DNA of 32,890 nt from Microgenomates group bacterium GW2011_GWA2_44_7 (GTDB lineage: Bacteria; Patescibacteriota; Microgenomatia; GWA2-44-7): positions 1 through 32,890 of the forward strand of contig LCJH01000003.1 in NCBI GenBank assembly GCA_000999595.1. Direction: 5' to 3'. Made by a program: the position numbers and the translations under genes. Below the pieces are notes generated by a model. That model was not told the origin of the DNA, made no database searches, and was given only the letters and a program-made list of their open reading frames with translations. Below, one piece after another: positions 4,016 through 27,292 of this stretch. Position 1 is the stretch's first letter; each line of letters begins with the position of its first letter.

Positions 4016-5227
4016 ATGACACGTTTTCGATATCAAGCAAGAGACACTAACGGCAAACTATATAAAGGTATTGTCGAGTCACAAGATAAGCATCAGGCTG
4101 CACGCATCCTCCGCGAGAAGGACCTTTATCCGGTCGGCTTAAAGGATGAAAGCGGAGGCCCTTTTCAAAAGGCGAATGAAGCCTTAACCAGAAGAGTCAA
4201 ATTCGGCGACTTAGTCCTCTTCACCCGACAATTATCAACCATGTTTACGGCCGGATTACAGTTAACGGACGCCCTGTCACTGTTGCGCCGCCAACTTTCT
4301 AGCCGTTTCGGCGAGGTAATCGCAGATTTACAAACATCGATCGAAGGCGGAAGCTCTTTATCAGACGCCATGGCCAAACATGGAGACGTCTTTACCTCTG
4401 TCTATATCGCCCTAGTAAAAACTGGCGAATCGTCAGGGCTTCTTGACGAAGTATTAACCCGTTTGGCCGATAATTTGGAGAAGGAGCAAGAATTTCGGTC
4501 AAAGGTAAAAGGGGCGATGATCTATCCCATGATCATCATTGTAGGCATGGTACTCGTAATTATTGTGATGATGGTCTTCGTTATTCCCAAAATGACACAG
4601 CTCTACCAAGATTTTGGCGCGACTTTGCCGATGCCAACCCAAATCTTAATTAACTTTTCAAACCTGATAAGTAACTTCTGGTGGCTATGGTTGCTGCTCT
4701 CCATGGGCTTTCTTTACGGCTATCAAGCCTATTACAAAACAAACACCGGCCGGCACCACCTGGATAGTTTCTACTTAAGATTGCCTATTTTGGGTGGTCT
4801 GAATAAGACCATGATTATGACGGAGTTTACTCGGACCATGAGTCTTCTTATTAGCGCCGGTGTTTCCATGATTGAGGCTTTGAATATTGTCGCTAAGGCA
4901 ATGGGAAACATCCTTTTTGAAGACGGGGTAAAATCGGCTTCTACCCAAGTGGAAAAGGGGTTCCCCCTCGCTTACGCTTTGGCTCAAACAGAAGTTTTTC
5001 CACCCATCGTCACGCAGATGGTTTCAGTGGGAGAGGAAACCGGGAAAGTTGGCGAAGTCCTGGGAAAATTATCGCGGTATTTTGAAAGTGAATCTGAAAA
5101 TTTAGTCAAGGGTCTGACCTCCGCCATTGAACCGCTGATTATTATTGTTTTAGGTGTCGGTGTCGCCTTTCTTGTAGTGGCAATTATTATGCCTATATAT
5201 AGCCTAACTTCACAGTTCAGTCCTTGA
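4016..5227 (+). CDS. pilC: Type IV pilus inner-membrane platform protein PilC/GspF
   Basis: 403 aa; two T2SSF domains (FTRQLSTMFTAGLQLTDAL; FTRTMSLLISAGVSMIEAL), VGEETGKVGEVLGKLSRYFE, C-terminal TM segment. Confidence 0.95.
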   Translation: MTRFRYQARDTNGKLYKGIVESQDKHQAARILREKDLYPVGLKDESGGPFQKANEALTRRVKFGDLVLFTRQLSTMFTAGLQLTDALSLLRRQLSSRFGEVIADLQTSIEGGSSLSDAMAKHGDVFTSVYIALVKTGESSGLLDEVLTRLADNLEKEQEFRSKVKGAMIYPMIIIVGMVLVIIVMMVFVIPKMTQLYQDFGATLPMPTQILINFSNLISNFWWLWLLLSMGFLYGYQAYYKTNTGRHHLDSFYLRLPILGGLNKTMIMTEFTRTMSLLISAGVSMIEALNIVAKAMGNILFEDGVKSASTQVEKGFPLAYALAQTEVFPPIVTQMVSVGEETGKVGEVLGKLSRYFESESENLVKGLTSAIEPLIIIVLGVGVAFLVVAIIMPIYSLTSQFSP

Positions 5228-5368: not shown

Positions 5369-7432
<2,064 letters not shown>

Positions 7433-7468
7433 TGAGATGATTTAAGAATTAAGAATTATGATTTAAGA

Positions 7469-9478
7469 ATGACTTTACAGACAATATTAATAACTAGCGG
7501 GGGAGCCGGAATCTTAGCCATCGTTTATTCTCTTTGGCAAGTAACGCGCATTATGGCGTTGCCGGCGGGCGATAAAAAGATGCAAGAAATTGCCGGCGCA
7601 ATCCTAGAAGGAGCCAACGCTTATCTTAAAAGGCAGTATATCGTCATCGCGGTGGTGGCAATTTTGGTTATGGCTATTCTCCTTTTTCTCTATAAAAGCC
7701 CCCTTGCCCCCATCTCTTTCTTAATTGGGGCTCTATTTTCGGCGGCTTCAGGAATCGTCGGGATGAGTGTTTCTGTCAGAACAAATGTCCGAACAACAGA
7801 AGCTGCCAAAAAGGGTTTGGGGCCGGCACTGGCCTTGGCTTTTAGCGGTGGCTCCATTACCGGACTGATGGTCGCAGGCTTGGCACTTCTATCGGTAAGC
7901 ATCGTGCTTCTTTTTATTCCGGGTGGCAATGAAAGACTGGCCGCTATGGGATTCGGAGCCTCACTTATATCTATCTTCGCCCGCATCGGCGGGGGAATCT
8001 TCACTAAGGCGGCTGACGTCGGGACCGATATGGTAGGAAAAATAGAAGCAGGCATCCCGGAAGACGATCCGCGAAACCCAGGCGTAATTGCCGACAATGT
8101 GGGCGATAACGTCGGTGACTGTGCCGGTATGGCGGCCGATCTATTTGAAACTTACGTGGTCACGATGGTGGCCGCCATTCTGTTGGGCAATCTTGTCCTG
8201 CCCCACTTCCCACTCGCCCAAGGCTTTCCCCTGATGATCGGTGCTTTTTCCATTGCTGCTTCAATTGTGGCCACATTCTTTGTGCGGTTAGGGAAATCCA
8301 ATAGCATTATGGGGGCTTTATATAAAGGACTTGGAGTGGCGGTTGTCTTGTCACTAATGGCTTTTTATCCTCTTACACAGATGTTGATGGCCGATAACCT
8401 AATTTATCCGTGGATAAGATTGTACTTAGCAAGTTTAATAGGGCTGGGAGTAACCGTAGCGATGGTTGCCATTACCGAATTTTACACTTCAAAACGCTAC
8501 GGCAGCGTCCAAACGATTGCCAAAGCCGGTGTCTCCGGCCACGGTACCAATATCATTGCCGGGCTGGCGGTTTCCATGAAATCAACGGCCATCCCGGTCA
8601 TCGTTATCTGTGCCGCTATCTTGGGAGCATATTCGCTGGCTAATCTCTACGGAGTGGCCATCGCCGCCGCCGCCATGCTCTCTCTAACCGGAATTGTCGT
8701 GGCCATTGACGCCTTCGGCCCCATTACCGACAACGCCGGTGGCATCGCCGAAATGGCAGGCCTACCGGAGAAAACCCGCGAAGTTACCGATGCCTTGGAT
8801 GCCGTCGGCAACACCACAAAAGCGGTAACCAAGGGCTATGCTATCGGCTCGGCCGCCTTGGCCGCTTTAGTCCTTTTTGGAGCCTATACCCAAGAAATTA
8901 GCACTAAGACAGGAAACGCTCTCAGTTTCTCTCTATCAGATCCTCTGGTCTTAGTCGGCTTATTTATCGGCGGAGCCATGCCCTACTTTTTTGGAGCGCT
9001 ACTGATGGAGTCCGTCGGTAAAGCCGCCGGCACGATAGTCGAAGAAATCAGAAGACAGTTCAGAGAAATAAAAGGTATCATGCAAGGCAAAGCCAAGCAA
9101 GAATACGGTAAGGCGGTGGAAATTGTGACCGGAGCCGCCATTAGACAAATGGTTATTCCCGCTCTGCTACCGGTGGTAATTCCGATTGTTGTCGGCTACA
9201 TTTTGGGTCCGGTCGCTCTGGGAGGAGTTCTCGTTGGTTCAATTGTTACCGGTCTATTTGTGGCCGTGAGCATGACCACCGGAGGCGCGGCCTGGGATAA
9301 CGCGAAAAAATATATCGAGGGCGGAAACCTAGGCGGAAAGGGGAGCCTGGCCCACCAAGCCGCCGTCACCGGAGACACCGTCGGTGATCCCTATAAAGAT
9401 ACCGCCGGCCCCGCAATAAACCCCATGATTAAAGTTGCCAACATCGTCGCCCTTTTGTTAACCGGTTTTATCGTCTAA
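7469..9478 (+). CDS. hppA: Membrane-bound proton-translocating pyrophosphatase, predicted K+-independent type
   Basis: 669 aa; [84 protein letters not shown] (Lys and Thr at the determinant positions) suggests K+-independence. Confidence 0.97.
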
Positions 9479-15356: not shown

Positions 15357-18300
15357 TTAAAGATTATTTGGAACGATGGTAACGCTGCTGGCTAGATGGT
15401 TACCGATATACATGCGACCAAGACTGAAGTTCTCCGCCATTCCAAACGGACTGTTAACAAACTGTTGACCGACTACCGCGTAGGTACTTGGGTCGACAAT
15501 CAGTAGTTGATTGTCATGTTCGGCAGCAATATAGATCTTTCCCGTTTGTTGACTAACTCGTATTTCACCACCATCGCCGGTATCACCCAAAACCGTTGAG
15601 GTTTTAAAGGTTACTCCGCTAGGGTCGGCACTCAGTACATAAAGCGTGCTGGGGATATCAAAATCAGAATCAAAAGCAACCATTGTATAGACTTCGTTAG
15701 TGGTAGGGTTTGCCTGGATGTAAAACGGTACACCACCGGTTGAGAAAGTTTGGATCAGTTGTCCGGGATTTGAGCTGATATCGAATATTTTGATGTTTTT
15801 ACCATCCCTGTTAGAAACGTAAAGCTGGTTCAGGTTGGGGTTGACAGCGACACCGAATGAGCCGGAATCTGTACTGAGACAGCCGACCAGGGTGTTGCTA
15901 ACAGCATCGATAACGGCAACTCGGCCGGGACCATAAAGGGCCACATAGACTCTTTTTGTGGCGTTATTCGCAACCATATTAGTCGGAGAACCTGCACATT
16001 GTATCGGCGATAACGGATCATCTAGCTTAATATCTTTTACTTTTAGCATTAACCGTGCGTCGATTACGGAAACAGTAGTGCCGCCGCTATTACCGACAAA
16101 GACTCTGTCGTTAACATAAACCACACCCCACGGCCGTAAACCAACTTTTATTGTTCTTATCGTCAGTTTTTGAATCTCATCCCAGATATCGACTCGACCT
16201 AGGTCAGCCGAAGCCACATACAGTCGGTTACGAAGAGTGTCTACCGCCATACCCTTAGGACGTACAACAGTAAATGGGGTGGGAGTAGGGGTCACGGTTG
16301 GCGTTGGTGTCGGAGTTACAGTAGGAGTTACCGTCGGTGTTGGTGTGGGTGTCAAGGTCGGGGTAGGCGTCACCGTTGGAGTCGGCGTCGGGGTAATAGT
16401 AGGCGTGGGAGTTGGTGTAGAGGAAGAACAGATAGCTAAATCCCTCCAATTACCACCGGGGTAATAGCCTGAGGACATTCCTGCTTTAAAACCAACTGAA
16501 ACAGAGGTACTGCTTCCTGTATCGATGGTTCGACTATATGTCTGCCAGACACCGCCGTTACCATTAGGATAAGAGCCGAATCCGTCGAATTTATTTACAT
16601 ATACCCAATTGAAGGGGCTGCTATCAAAGTCGAAGGCAGAATACGCCCCGAGTCTATAGGCAACTTCAGTCCAGTAATTCAGCCCCGGATCGCCCTTCAT
16701 GGAAACGGTGATACTGTAGGTACTTCCGGGAGAAATGCTGTAAGTTTTAACTCTCGCCGAAGAACCGGAACTATTCAAGTAGGCGTATAAGAAGCTTGGT
16801 GTACTCCAACTTGCAGGTGAACCCCATGGAGCATCCCAGGCACTATTCCAACTTGGCATAGAGCTCAGTGAATCATAAACCACACAATTCGGAGGCGGTG
16901 TCGGGGTGGGAGTAACCGTCGGCGTAGGTGTAGGGGTCACAGTCGGAGTTGGAGTAGGCGTGGGAGTAACGGTTGGTGTAGGGGTTGGTGTCGGAGTAGG
17001 TGTTTCCGTTGGGGTAGGAGTTGGAGTCTCGGTCGGTGTTGGAGTAGGTGTTTCAGTTGGAGTCGGCGTAGGTGTAACCGTGGGTGTCGGAGTTGGCGTC
17101 TCAGTGGGTGTAGGCGTAGGAGTCACCGTAGGTGTAGGCGTAGGTGTTTCCGTTGGGGTAGGAGTTGGAGTCTCGGTCGGTGTTGGAGTAGGAGTCACCG
17201 TAGGCGTAGGTGTAGGAGTTTCAGTTGGAGTCGGTGTAGGAGTCGGTGTAGGAGTTTCTGTAGGTGTAGGTGTGGGGGTCGGAGTAGGTGTAGGTGTAAT
17301 TGTGGGTGTAGGCGTGGGGGTAACGGTAGGTGTGGGAGTAGGCGTAATTGTCGGTGTTGGCGTCGGAGTTGGAGTCTCAGTCGGAGTAGGTGTAGGGGTA
17401 ATTGTTGGCGTGGGAGTAGGTGTCACCGTGGGCGTAGGGGTCGGGGTCACAGTCGGCGTGGGCGTTGGAGTTTCCGTCGGTGTGGGCGTCGGTGTCACAG
17501 TGGGTGTTGGTGTCGGTGTTTCTGTTGGTGTAGGGGTAGGAGTAACCGTCGGTGTTGGGGTGGGGGTTGGCGTCGGAGTTGGAGTTGGAGTCTCAGTGGG
17601 AGTAGGCGTAGGAGTAATTGTTGGAGTCGGTGTAATAGTAGGTGTTGGTGTTGGGGTTACCGTGGGGGTAGGCGTCGGGGTCGGAGTAGGTGTAGGTGTA
17701 ATTGTGGGTGTAGGCGTGGGAGTAGGAGTCTCTGTGGGCGTAGGGGTTGGGGTAGGTGTCGGAGTTGGGGTGGGTGTTTCCGTAGGAGTTGGTGTAGGCG
17801 TAACAATTGGGGTAGGAGTTGGAGTAACCGTCGGGGTTGGAGTCTCTGTGGGCGTGGGCGTTGGTGTAGGGGTTTCTGTTGGTGTAGGTGTGGGAGTTTC
17901 CGTTGGTGTGGACGTAGGGGTCGGTGTAGGAGTAATTGTCGGCGTCGGCGTTGGTGTTTCCGTAGGTGCAGGAGTAGGTGTTACCGTCGGAGTCGGTGTC
18001 GGTATCTCTGTCGGAGTCGGTGTCGGGGTGGGATCTACATCGTAACAGAAAGAAGCATGGCTAAGACCGGCATTCCCCGGGGCTTGCAGATTGTTGTCCC
18101 CGAATGCCTCAGCGTACTGGTAGATATTAGCGCTTGGTCCACCCTTGACGATAACGGCATCAACCCCGAAAGTTGAGAGCCAATCAAAAGACTTGTCCCC
18201 TTCATCGGCCGAGACATCACTCAGAGTCAGGTATTGAGTTGAACCATCGGCTAATAAGACGTCGTAAGTGCCATTGGCGACAGGATCCACCCGATACGCT

Positions 18301-18611
18301 TCTAAAAGATCCGGTCGGATATCACTACAGGATGGGTTACCGGGAGTGGGAGACGGGGTGACGGTAGGGGTTGGAGTAGCAGTCACGGTCGGAGTGGGTG
18401 TCGGTGTTTCCGTAGGTGTTGGTTTACTTGCCAACGCAAGGGATAGCTCAGGCGCAGGAGCTGGGGAAGGAATCGGTTCCTCTGTCCACGCAAACCCAGA
18501 TGGGCTCAGGGAAGATAGGGCGAGGGAGATTGTAAGTACTAGCGAGCGCAAACCAACGACCGCTTTTTCAAGCACGTGAGTTATTCTACACCGAAGTACT
18601 GGGAAAAACAA
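15357..18611 (-). CDS. Large secreted/surface protein: signal peptide, globular domain, long PT-rich linker, CBM-like domain, short PT linker, YVTN-type beta-propeller
   Basis: 1084 aa; N-terminal hydrophobic segment; [25 protein letters not shown]...LSHASFCYD; (TP)n with E/V/I interruptions; C-terminal [18 protein letters not shown]...[24 protein letters not shown] repeats. Confidence 0.9.
16906..18030. repeat. ~1.1-kb hexanucleotide-type tandem array (GGN GTN on +; ACN CCN on -) encoding the PT linker
   Basis: Uninterrupted GGNGTN hexamers with periodic TCN/TTN-type interruptions. Confidence 0.95.
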
Positions 18612-19300: not shown

Positions 19301-20416
19301 ATGAAAACCCAACAATCTCAACCGAAAGAAAATGAAATGGACAGTAATATACTATCAGTCGCTAAAACACTTTTATGTTTTAGGACTGTAGCTGGGGCTA
19401 CAGATGAGTTTGAAGGGGCTTTTTCATATATAGAAAGGTGGGCTGCCACTCACGATTTCGACATCGAGCCGTTTACTTGCAATGGTATCCGATCTTGCCT
19501 TTTAAGCGGTTCCTCTAAAAAACTATTTGCTCCAGATATCATTCTGCATGGACATGTCGATGTTGTTCCGGCACATGATGAAATGTTTCAGCCAATGATT
19601 CTGGGAAATAAATTATATGGACGAGGAGCGGTCGACATGAAAGGAGCAATAGGAGCAATGATGGTTGCGCTTGAAAAGTTAAAACATACTAAACCTAAAA
19701 ATAAGATCGCACTATTAATAACAGGAGATGAAGAAACCGGAGGCCACAGTGGAACGGAATATATCTTAAAAACAATCAACCTGCGGCCAAAGTTGGTTAT
19801 AAGCGGAGAGCCGACAGAATTTAATATTTGCTATGCGACAAAAGGTATTATCGAAACAAAAGTTCACTTTTTAGGTAAATCCGCTCACGGAGCTCGTCCT
19901 TGGGAAGGGGTAAACGCCGTTGAGAAAGCCTCCGATTTTATTCAGAAACTTGTATCAAGATATCCTAATCCCATAGCGGCATCTTGGAAAACAACTATCA
20001 ATATCGGGATGATTTCCGGCGGTGATGCTTTTAATAAGGTACCCGGAGACTGTTATGTTGCACTAGATATAAGGTATGTGCCAGAAGAATCATCGGTCAA
20101 ACTTGTAAAAAACCTAAAAGCCCTCGGGGGAGATCGATGGGAGATGGTAAACAACGAAATTCCCCTAAATAGCGATCCGACCTCTAAGCCGATAAAATCC
20201 TTACAAGCCTTAGTCGGTAATCTGACAGGAAAGAAACCAATTCTTTATAAAGAACACTATGCTGCTGATTCCCGCTATTTTTCTAAAATTGGCATTCCGG
20301 CTGTTAACTTTGGGCCGAGCGGCGGCGGGATGCATACCGACGCGGAATGGGTTAGTTTAAAATCTCTTCAAGAATATTGCGATGTATTGGTTAAATTGGG
20401 CGACATTCATCTTTAA
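19301..20416 (+). CDS. M20-family metallopeptidase (ArgE/DapE/CPG2-like); start may be 19337
   Basis: HGHVDVVPAHDE, YGRGAVDMKGAIGAMM, LLITGDEETGG, SGEPTEF, MHTDAEWV. Confidence 0.93.
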   Translation: MKTQQSQPKENEMDSNILSVAKTLLCFRTVAGATDEFEGAFSYIERWAATHDFDIEPFTCNGIRSCLLSGSSKKLFAPDIILHGHVDVVPAHDEMFQPMILGNKLYGRGAVDMKGAIGAMMVALEKLKHTKPKNKIALLITGDEETGGHSGTEYILKTINLRPKLVISGEPTEFNICYATKGIIETKVHFLGKSAHGARPWEGVNAVEKASDFIQKLVSRYPNPIAASWKTTINIGMISGGDAFNKVPGDCYVALDIRYVPEESSVKLVKNLKALGGDRWEMVNNEIPLNSDPTSKPIKSLQALVGNLTGKKPILYKEHYAADSRYFSKIGIPAVNFGPSGGGMHTDAEWVSLKSLQEYCDVLVKLGDIHL

Positions 20417-20424
20417 GCGGAGCC

Positions 20425-20454
20425 TTGACAAAGATCACCCGTGACCAATAGAAT
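20425..20454 (+). promoter_or_regulatory. Sigma70-like promoter of leader module 2 (TTGACA-N18-TAGAAT)
   Basis: TTGACA 20425-20430, TAGAAT 20449-20454, 7 nt then ATG at 20462; same geometry as module 1. Confidence 0.65.
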
Positions 20455-20461
20455 AATCACA

Positions 20462-20542
20462 ATGAATTCCTGGTTCCTCTACATTACCCGCTTTATCCTC
20501 CCGATTATGGGTAGGAAAGCTGGTTTGGGAGGAGCGATATAA
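20462..20542 (+). CDS. Putative leaderless 26-aa leader peptide 2: MNSWFLYITRFILPIMGRKAGLGGAI
   Basis: Same length (81 nt), same ATGAATTC start and same promoter spacing as 18790-18870; followed by an antiterminator-capable stem and a terminator. Confidence 0.62.
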   Translation: MNSWFLYITRFILPIMGRKAGLGGAI

Positions 20543-20575
20543 AATAAACTAGAAAAAGAAAAAATCCTAAACCAG

Positions 20576-20604
20576 CCAACCCAAAAGGGTTGGTTTTTGT
20601 TTTT
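20576..20604 (+). terminator. Intrinsic terminator/attenuator of module 2
   Basis: CCAACCC-AAAA-GGGTTGG-TTTTTGTTTTT. Confidence 0.8.
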
Positions 20605-20712
20605 ATAAAGGATTTTTTCCGGATGGCTGGCGCTCAGTGATATCACCTAACAGCGTGTGGGAGCGGTGATATCAGCTGCCACAAAGCAGTATGGGCACCA
20701 GTCATCTGGACC

Positions 20713-20915
20713 TTCTCACCTCCCCCTCAACGGCGAGGGGGAAATTTACTAAGAAAGGAGGTGAGAAAATGGCCAGAAAGCTTTGGGCCCTTCGGGGCCC
20801 AAACGACCCGGATGACACCGGGTCGGACAGCGACCCTGACGGGTCGGGTTCCCGCGACGGGAACCCACCCGATTAGGGTTGCACGCAAGGGTTGGCAACC
20901 CGTCGACCCTTGCGT
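20713..20915 (+). other. Array of consecutive perfect stem-loops (structured RNA or DNA cassette)
   Basis: TTCTCACCTCC(20713)/GGAGGTGAGAA(20757); TCCCCCTC/GAGGGGGA; TTTGGGCCC-TTCG-GGGCCCAAA; CGACCCGG/CCGGGTCG; CGACCC-TGAC-GGGTCG; GGGTTCCC/GGGAACCC; ACGCAAGGG/CCCTTGCGT enclosing GGGTT-GGC-AACCC. Confidence 0.85.
20769..20876 (+). CDS. Putative 35-aa peptide MARKLWALRGPNDPDDTGSDSDPDGSGSRDGNPPD
   Basis: ATG 6 nt after a near-perfect SD (AAAGGAGGTGA); SD lies in an 11-bp stem. Confidence 0.5.
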   Translation: MARKLWALRGPNDPDDTGSDSDPDGSGSRDGNPPD

Positions 20916-20930
20916 AAATTTTAAAAAAGT

Positions 20931-21908
20931 ATGTCTCATCAACTCGTTAAATCACTTATCCAACCAAGGGGGATAGAGACAACCCCAAAGTTAAGGCGGC
21001 TACATCCAGTTGAAGCTTCTTTAAGGCTGCTTCTCCGTTCAAATAACCTGCTTTGCTGTGTCAGCCAAGAAACAAAAGATCAAATCAGAAAAACGATCAG
21101 AAATTGCTTTGTCTTTCAACAACCATTGACCGTAAATATTACGTTCGGGAGTTACAAAGGGAAAAATGTGCCTTCAAGAATCTACGCCAATTGGGCTGAG
21201 ATTCTAAATGTTAAATTCATGCTTGATACATTAATCAAGATTGCGGAAATATATCCCTTCGGTGTCGTTTTAGAATATGTCCTCCAAGATATTCTTTTAA
21301 CAGAACTTAACGATATAAGCTCCGACGACGTCAGTCGGTATATTGAATCATTCCAAGAAATTGTTAGTCTTTTTCAGCCGTCTTTAAGCAACATCGTTAC
21401 AATTAAAACAATTCGGTATGGAGATATCGTTGATCATCACGAATTTAAAAATAATATAAGCAAAGAAATTGAAAAGATAAAAACCGAATGGAAACTCTCC
21501 GAAAATCAAGAACTAGCCAAGGCCGCCATTGAGAGGGCGAAACGAAACCTGCAAAAAGTAAACCCTTCTGACGGTGAGATTATCGAATCAGCCATGTTCC
21601 ACACAGCATATGTCCGGACCTGCTTCACATTGGATTATTTCGAAACTAAAGAGAGAATTTTTTTGGTTCACCGAAAAACAATTTCTGGAAACAAACCGTT
21701 TATTCCTTATCGAAGTTTTCATTCGTCAGCGGTGCAATTCTGGGTAGGCGAAGGCGCCCTGGTCAAAAACGGTGTTCTCAAGCCAACAATTCTCAGTGGA
21801 AAACAACTTGGGGAGCATAACCCTTTATATTCGATAGAAAATGACGCCTTTGAAACAAGAAACCCCAACCTAAAATCTATCGCCGTCTATGAAAAAACTT
21901 CGAGTTGA
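20931..21908 (+). CDS. Uncharacterised protein; possible distant relative of the DIT1/PvcA isocyanide synthase fold
   Basis: 325 aa; ITFGSYKGKNVPSRIYANWAEILNVKFMLDTLIKIAEIYPFGVVLEYVLQDILLTELNDISSDDVSRYIESFQEIV resembles the PvcA-family order of elements. Weak match by eye. Confidence 0.6.
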   Translation: MSHQLVKSLIQPRGIETTPKLRRLHPVEASLRLLLRSNNLLCCVSQETKDQIRKTIRNCFVFQQPLTVNITFGSYKGKNVPSRIYANWAEILNVKFMLDTLIKIAEIYPFGVVLEYVLQDILLTELNDISSDDVSRYIESFQEIVSLFQPSLSNIVTIKTIRYGDIVDHHEFKNNISKEIEKIKTEWKLSENQELAKAAIERAKRNLQKVNPSDGEIIESAMFHTAYVRTCFTLDYFETKERIFLVHRKTISGNKPFIPYRSFHSSAVQFWVGEGALVKNGVLKPTILSGKQLGEHNPLYSIENDAFETRNPNLKSIAVYEKTSS

Positions 21909-26257: not shown

Positions 26258-27292
26258 TTATTTATTACCGGAATGATATTGTTTATGGACCTCTTTAAGC
26301 TGTCGGTTGGTGACGTGGGTATATATTTGGGTAGTCGCTACGTTTTTGTGGCCAAGCATTTCTTGGACGCTTCGAAGATCAGCCCCTGCCTGTAATAGGT
26401 CCGTTGCAAACGAATGCCTTAAGCCATGGGGAGTAATTTTGATAGGAAGTTTGGCCTTTTTAACGTATTTTTCAACCAGCCGTTGAATACTTCGCGAAGT
26501 TAAGCGATGTTTCTCGCTTTCATTTACATCAAACGTCTTGATCACCTTCTCTATGTCTCCCTTTAGACCACGAAAATTAATAAAGAGTGGTGTCCATTGA
26601 TCTTTTCGCATCGCCAGATACCCCTCAAGCGACTGCGCCGCCCGGTCAGAAATAAAAACCACCCTAACTTTTCGTCCCTTCCCGATAATTCCAAACTCCC
26701 TCCGCTCGATATTAACCGTGTCTCTATTTAAAGAAACCAATTCACTCACCCGTAAGCCCGTGGAGAATAATAATTCAAGAATTGCCTTGTCCCTGGCGCC
26801 ATCAAGCGTCGAGGGTAGTGGTTGACTTAAGAGATGCTCCACTTGATCGCGATCTAAAAACTTTAGACTATGAGACTCCCCCCTGGGCAATTCTATTTTT
26901 TCGGGCGAAAGAACATTGTAATCATTTTTCGTTAACCATTTGAGAAACGCCCGGATGGCAATAACATAATAAGACTGAGTCACCCGAGACAAAGACCTAT
27001 TCTTAGAGTCCGTGTACTGAGCAAGATAGAGCCGATATTTTCTAATTGTCGGTAAGTTTATATCCTGAACCTTACAGCTCTCACCCTCGGACTTTATCAA
27101 CCAGTCCAAGAAGCGTCTCAGGTAATGGCGATAGTCCCGAATCGTTAAAGGTGACGCATTCTTCTCGACCAGAAGATAACCTAAAAAATCTTCAATTAAC
27201 ACGCCAATCGGACCGCCAAGCCGACCACCGGGTAGGGGAGTGGAACCCTGGTTTGACGGCTCATCGTGTTTGTCTGACGGATTAACTGACAT
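26258..27292 (-). CDS. xerD: XerC/D-type tyrosine recombinase
   Basis: LLFSTGLRVSELVSLNRD, GKGRKVRVVFI, TPHGLRHSFATDLLQAGADLRSVQEMLGHKNVATTQIYTHV. Confidence 0.93.
   Translation of the reverse strand: MSVNPSDKHDEPSNQGSTPLPGGRLGGPIGVLIEDFLGYLLVEKNASPLTIRDYRHYLRRFLDWLIKSEGESCKVQDINLPTIRKYRLYLAQYTDSKNRSLSRVTQSYYVIAIRAFLKWLTKNDYNVLSPEKIELPRGESHSLKFLDRDQVEHLLSQPLPSTLDGARDKAILELLFSTGLRVSELVSLNRDTVNIERREFGIIGKGRKVRVVFISDRAAQSLEGYLAMRKDQWTPLFINFRGLKGDIEKVIKTFDVNESEKHRLTSRSIQRLVEKYVKKAKLPIKITPHGLRHSFATDLLQAGADLRSVQEMLGHKNVATTQIYTHVTNRQLKEVHKQYHSGNK

Follow-up and report, generated by a model that had tools for sequence, protein, structure and literature searches.

The window analysed here, a 32,890-nt stretch of the genome of a Microgenomates group bacterium, contains between an M20 peptidase gene (19301-20416) and a gene starting at 20931 what is predicted to be a compact transcription unit of its own, located at approximately 20618-20915 and composed of a leader, a perfect Shine-Dalgarno (SD) sequence that may be sequestered, a 35-codon ORF and a terminal hairpin. 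An intrinsic terminator on the + strand (GCCAACCC-AAAA-GGGTTGG-TTTTTG, about 20574-20600) stands between the peptidase gene and this unit, all features of which lie on the + strand as well. In the minimum-energy fold, the 5' leader (20618-20710) adopts a three-way junction with a closing stem CCGGATGGCTGG/CCAGTCATCTGG and the arms AGTGATATCACC../..GGTGATATCA and GCTGC/GCAGT. Sequence and fold then delineate a putative SD-sequestering structure at 20713-20767, in which TTCTCACCTCC (20713-20723) is exactly complementary to GGAGGTGAGAA (20757-20767). Because this complement lies just upstream, the perfect SD GAAAGGAGGTGA (20753-20764), which presents AAAGGAGGTGA ahead of the ATG at 20769, can be hidden, and part of the sequestering pairing is contested by an inner hairpin (20721-20742). 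The anti-SD and the alternative hairpins are present, and neither a ligand nor a conserved aptamer nor switching of a terminator was found with them. The SD is of the type found at highly expressed genes, and recurs before genes for pilins or pilin-like proteins, HU, Hsp20-like proteins and secreted proteins, both in this genome and in the class.

The ORF (20769-20876; GC3 0.75) encodes the peptide MARKLWALRGPNDPDDTGSDSDPDGSGSRDGNPPD* and is traversed by three hairpins: TTTGGGCCC-TTCG-GGGCCCAAA (20782-20803), CGACCCGG-ATGACA-CCGGGTCG (20804-20825), and a 53-nt hairpin (20830-20882) covering the C-terminal codons and the stop. A terminal hairpin, ACGCAAGGG..CCCTTGCGT with a nested GGGTT-GGC-AACCC (20883-20915), completes the unit. 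It occupies the place where terminator-type hairpins end several other units described below; it is followed by just AAATTTT and was not called in a terminator scan, while clear T runs follow the terminal hairpins of L057a, L049, L062b and L064a. The train of hairpins represents a very small protein-coding gene, the entire messenger of which is predicted to fold into adjacent hairpins.

Several other features of the neighborhood were recorded. Downstream, the product of 20931-21908 is an uncharacterized protein with a weak DIT1/PvcA (isonitrile synthase-like) match; two diverged paralogs of this gene exist elsewhere in the genome (L010, L011, L012). Behind it come genes for Ldh_2, for an M20 dipeptidase and for an S26 signal peptidase whose C-terminal part is YkwD-like. 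On the - strand, 15357-18611 is an ORF of 1084 aa that contains very long linkers of the type (T/E/V/I)PTPTP and gives one NHL repeat match; it is not a hairpin gene, and GC skew within it is 0.62 at 17001-18000.

The folding of this locus is exceptional. The 195 nt at 20721-20915 have a folding energy of -122.2 kcal/mol, where dinucleotide shuffles give -74.2 +/- 4.9 (z = -9.75; none of 200 shuffles as stable), and the three lowest 150-nt folding windows of the 32.9 kb fall here, at -87 compared with an average of -32 (sd 8.9). The initial annotation, which had described a hairpin train far denser and more perfect than its flanks, was therefore right to single out what is the most structured spot of the window. 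All six stems it listed are found, at 20721-20728/20735-20742, 20782-20790/20795-20803 (TTCG loop), 20804-20811/20818-20825, 20831-20836/20841-20846, 20846-20853/20859-20866 and 20883-20891/20907-20915. The fourth and fifth both exist, as two smaller hairpins (20831-20846 and 20846-20866) that form the alternative to the 53-nt hairpin; they share base 20846, however, and fuse in the minimum-energy fold. Hairpins do occur from 20721 onwards, but the structured stretch begins about 100 nt further upstream, at 20618, and the ORF with its perfect SD had been overlooked; that annotation was also not in a position to know of the similar-looking genes elsewhere in the genome.

That no recognized RNA family fits was substantiated by an Rfam scan, in which the window reached no gathering score; relaxed matches in 20400-20960 were weak and far under the cut-off, and six other hairpin loci returned one tRNA and nothing else. 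Upstream of the L047 ORF, the string GGGTGGTACCG is T-box-like, yet Rfam returned no T-box. Two of the identities first considered, a structured non-coding RNA and a mere 5' UTR switch, do not agree with hairpins that traverse a short coding sequence endowed with a strong ribosome-binding site, and that represent one case of a class of hairpin-built protein genes particular to this genome.

The unit is single-copy, with one BLAST match in its own genome, and no DNA homolog was detected in 374 genomes of the class, in phages or in plasmids, the only recurrent DNA matches being to the SD motif. The 35-aa peptide has no homolog in 137 relatives, Pfam, NCBIfam or PHROGs, and GTDB genomes yielded no ortholog of the downstream gene. 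A YebC scan for close relatives returned remote bacteria only; our comparisons reach the same class at nearest. In another genome of the class, an identical, mobile-element-like short repeat GTGTACTTTAACAAAAATTAACAGAGAAAGGAGGTGATAAAATC...GGGGTACACTTTA lies at many contig ends (L013-L017, G039); the repeats at the G039 contig ends have the SD motif alone in common with the unit.

The window unit does not stand alone. The genome is one fragmented metagenome-assembled genome (MAG; 100 contigs, 88% complete), Patescibacteria-like in size and gene content, of which about 780 kb (605 kb, then 174 kb) of 1.2 Mb, or ~65%, was sampled. Its extreme folding windows correspond to a few GC-rich genes in which consecutive perfect hairpins run across leader, coding sequence and trailer, and eleven further units of this kind, their ORFs ranging from 25 to more than 320 codons, were found in the sampled part. 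The smallest lies on contig C24 (2671; 25 aa, MDPRNFGDDPRITCLGDDPRGDDRG), followed by the window unit. Larger ones lie on C41 (3169-4137, 322 aa; 6591-7355, at least 243 aa), C34 (3452-3913, 153 aa; 4892-5071, 59 aa), C31 (836-1318, 160 aa), C26 (5951-6844, 297 aa), C12 (2554-2829, 91 aa), C47 (about 6996-7960, Pro/Thr-rich and with a frame break) and C39, which carries two paralogs with 27% identity (1184-1777 and 2277-2765). The 153-aa C34 protein belongs to the GtrA family (E 1.4e-12). Most of the hairpin genes encode orphan secreted or membrane proteins that matched no family, the majority having, as judged by eye, an N-terminal signal peptide or transmembrane segment, and beyond the C39 pair no significant similarity was found among them. 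None had a PHROG match of weight or occurred in viral contigs. The 322-aa protein has no homolog in 351 genomes of the class, a search of 380 genomes from the phylum found none for the L062 paralog family, and L054 gave a single marginal match (E 8e-4, 28% identity). AAA-type ATPase genes (GMRRTGKT / GVRRSGKT) adjoin hairpin genes on two contigs (L057 5511-6899, L122 5235-6413), and a near-identical dispersed repeat, ..CTCTGATTTACAGCTCG..GAGCGAAAAATCAGATTAGATTCGTTATACTCAA.., lies beside hairpin-rich stretches at L122 8230-8310 and L027 7850-7930.

Of the 572 ORFs that were compared with synonymous shuffles leaving protein and codon set unchanged (median -0.2 kcal per 100 nt, sd 2.7), most are neutral, and about ten hairpin genes stand apart in a tail of their own, at roughly -9 to -18 kcal per 100 nt relative to their shuffles; the window ORF lies 14.7 kcal per 100 nt under its own. 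Perfect coding hairpins, defined by at least 8 bp and a loop of 3-14, number 51 in twelve genes against 5.4 expected from synonymous-codon shuffles, and 3 against 0.31 in the window ORF. The members are not uniform: the 25-aa L047 member has a weak coding signal (z -1.9), the repeat-rich L122 member has 2 hairpins against 1.3 expected, and L062a is intermediate in this test. GC3 is 0.66-0.83 in the hairpin genes against 0.44 +/- 0.07 for the genome. When 120-nt windows with a GC-adjusted z < -4 were considered, 51 of 10,007 qualified in the first 605 kb, 46 of them inside hairpin units that together span 8 kb; in other genomes of the class only one of 12,678 did (40 stretches, 33 genomes). This excess of hairpins, in ORFs preceded by strong SDs, is confined to about a dozen units, over whose leader, coding sequence and trailer stem coverage reaches 40-70%, returning to the background level 50-150 nt beyond. 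Comparable hairpin-built genes were found neither in the sampled relatives nor, for CPR bacteria, in the open-licence literature.

Does this folding operate at the RNA or at the DNA level? When stems were scored symmetrically on both strands, mismatches on the sense strand were G.T in 67 cases and A.C in 24 (p = 3e-5); control genes gave 50:50, and composition predicts a ratio of about 1:1. The bias weakens to a non-significant 32:18 (p = 0.12) when only coding sequence is counted, and in the window unit mismatches are neutral (2:2). Stabilization over shuffles is stronger for the sense than for the antisense strand in 10 of 12 genes. The leaders of the C39 paralogs have kept a long hairpin, whose basal stem comprises 13 bp and whose apical stem has been rebuilt, and both sides have changed in a compensatory manner in 8 of 38 pairs. 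Since G.U is tolerated over A.C and paralogous leaders compensate, folding at the RNA level is favored. A common 5' leader with compensatory changes (GGCACATTAAATACCAGATGGCGTGTGCC + CGGCGCACGTCAG), observed at L062 1757-1990 and 2745-2990 (-), may be a small RNA regulatory element. Between the C39 paralogs, hairpin density is conserved and particular coding hairpins are not: no position-conserved coding hairpin was found, 40% of pairs being kept against 30-49% in slid controls. The hairpin register is independent of the codon register, so that protein sequence seems to be dictated by the hairpins, an outcome to which a mutational process could lead as well.

Such a process, in which heavy transcription would favor template switching at quasi-palindromes, so that imperfect inverted repeats of strongly transcribed, weakly constrained orphan genes would keep being perfected into functionless hairpins, is the chief competing explanation of the pattern as a whole, albeit an unlikely one in our view. 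Template switching is known to create and maintain perfect RNA-type stems (PMC8794818), and in yeast quasi-palindrome mutations were observed only under high transcription (PMC3820800). It stays a rival because individual coding hairpins, which ignore the codon register, are not conserved between paralogs. Nevertheless, it leaves unexplained the elevated GC3, the preference for G.U over A.C and the compensated leaders. RNase H deficiency as a driver was rejected, as genes for RNase HI and for RNase HII (partial, at a contig end) are present, and SbcD is also absent from most relatives, yet these have no hairpin genes. Quasi-palindrome template switching resembles the present case in making perfect stems, in coding DNA too and in a transcription-linked fashion, but has been described singly, site by site (PMC8794818, PMC8604942, PMC3820800), and is not known for hairpin trains spanning a gene and its UTRs.

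For the window unit alone, an isolated cis-regulatory leader is possible, although we deem it improbable, and it would not cover the class. The ORF would then encode a leader peptide and the hairpins would switch the operon from 20931 onwards by attenuation or SD sequestration. The short, Asp-rich peptide, the SD exactly complementary to an upstream segment, the alternative folds within 20830-20882 and a downstream gene that begins 15 nt past the last hairpin are all consistent with this scenario, and the short ORF, the predicted mutually exclusive folds and the potentially hidden SD of the window unit recall leader-peptide attenuators and SD-sequestering riboswitches. However, no clear T-tract follows 20915, no SD precedes 20931, and the paralogs of the downstream gene (L010-L012) have no hairpin unit. 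Furthermore, unlike such regulators, most members are full-size stand-alone genes with terminator hairpins of their own, several with an open SD, and the loci scanned gave no match to a regulatory Rfam family.

The hairpin-forming DNA element envisaged by the initial annotation, be it a MITE or a recombination or replication site, is very improbable, and an insertion-sequence end is likewise disfavored. Near-perfect palindromes and a XerC-like recombinase gene at 26258-27292 speak for it. Against it, the unit has one genomic copy, no terminal inverted repeats, no homologs and no phage or plasmid match; hairpin units coincide with ORFs plus their UTRs; and the sense-strand asymmetry, seen as G.U bias across the class, is joined by leader compensation in one paralog pair. 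Least credible of all is an artefact of assembly, binning or low complexity, for although the MAG is fragmented, homologs are lacking and some hairpin ORFs are Pro/Thr-rich, the units lie within contigs flanked by ordinary genes, their ORFs stay open for up to 322 codons with signal peptides, SDs and terminators, one encodes a GtrA protein, and the Pro/Thr-rich ORF at 15357-18611 was not flagged for hairpins.

Comparison with known systems is instructive. In positive-strand RNA viruses, genome-scale ordered RNA structure (GORS) likewise spreads folding through coding sequence beyond codon-shuffle expectation, as we find at gene scale; here, in contrast, about a dozen bacterial genes of high GC3, on chromosomal contigs with cellular genes and with neither viral genes nor an RNA genome, carry short, near-perfect local hairpins. 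Rickettsia palindromic elements also place palindromic DNA within bacterial ORFs, but are dispersed copies of one repeat, as are MITEs, whereas the window unit is single-copy and sequence-unrelated hairpins fill the gene. Hairpins within coding sequence also occur as mitochondrial byp (translational bypassing) elements, but these are hopped over; in hairpin genes the frame stays open through the hairpins, whose residues form the protein.

We propose that these loci are hairpin genes, each a single transcription unit folded nearly throughout, from leader to trailer, into local, near-perfect hairpins, and that the trait is kept because a folded mRNA is beneficial, a reading to which we assign a probability of roughly one half. 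The messages would be kept folded as whole molecules, most likely because this protects them from nucleases and prolongs their life. Their local domains could be melted one at a time by the ribosome, and initiation would be governed by the folded leader and, in the window unit, by the hidden SD. The perfect stems themselves likely arose from DNA template switching at imperfect inverted repeats. More tentatively, this lineage may have evolved a separate class of hairpin mRNAs, for which folding would be the selected trait and protein sequence subordinate to it; GC-rich transcripts for orphan secreted, membrane and micro-proteins would thereby gain persistence, protection and possibly export.

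In the usual view, protein and codon constraints shape coding sequence, and RNA structure plays a minor, local part; about a dozen genes of this bacterium went the opposite way. Synonymous-shuffle folding outliers with high GC3 provide a signature with which other genomes can be searched. Should the folding be selected, hairpin genes would stand for a new type of bacterial message design; should it be mutational, they would be a remarkable natural example of entire proteins shaped, and orphan genes created, by template switching.
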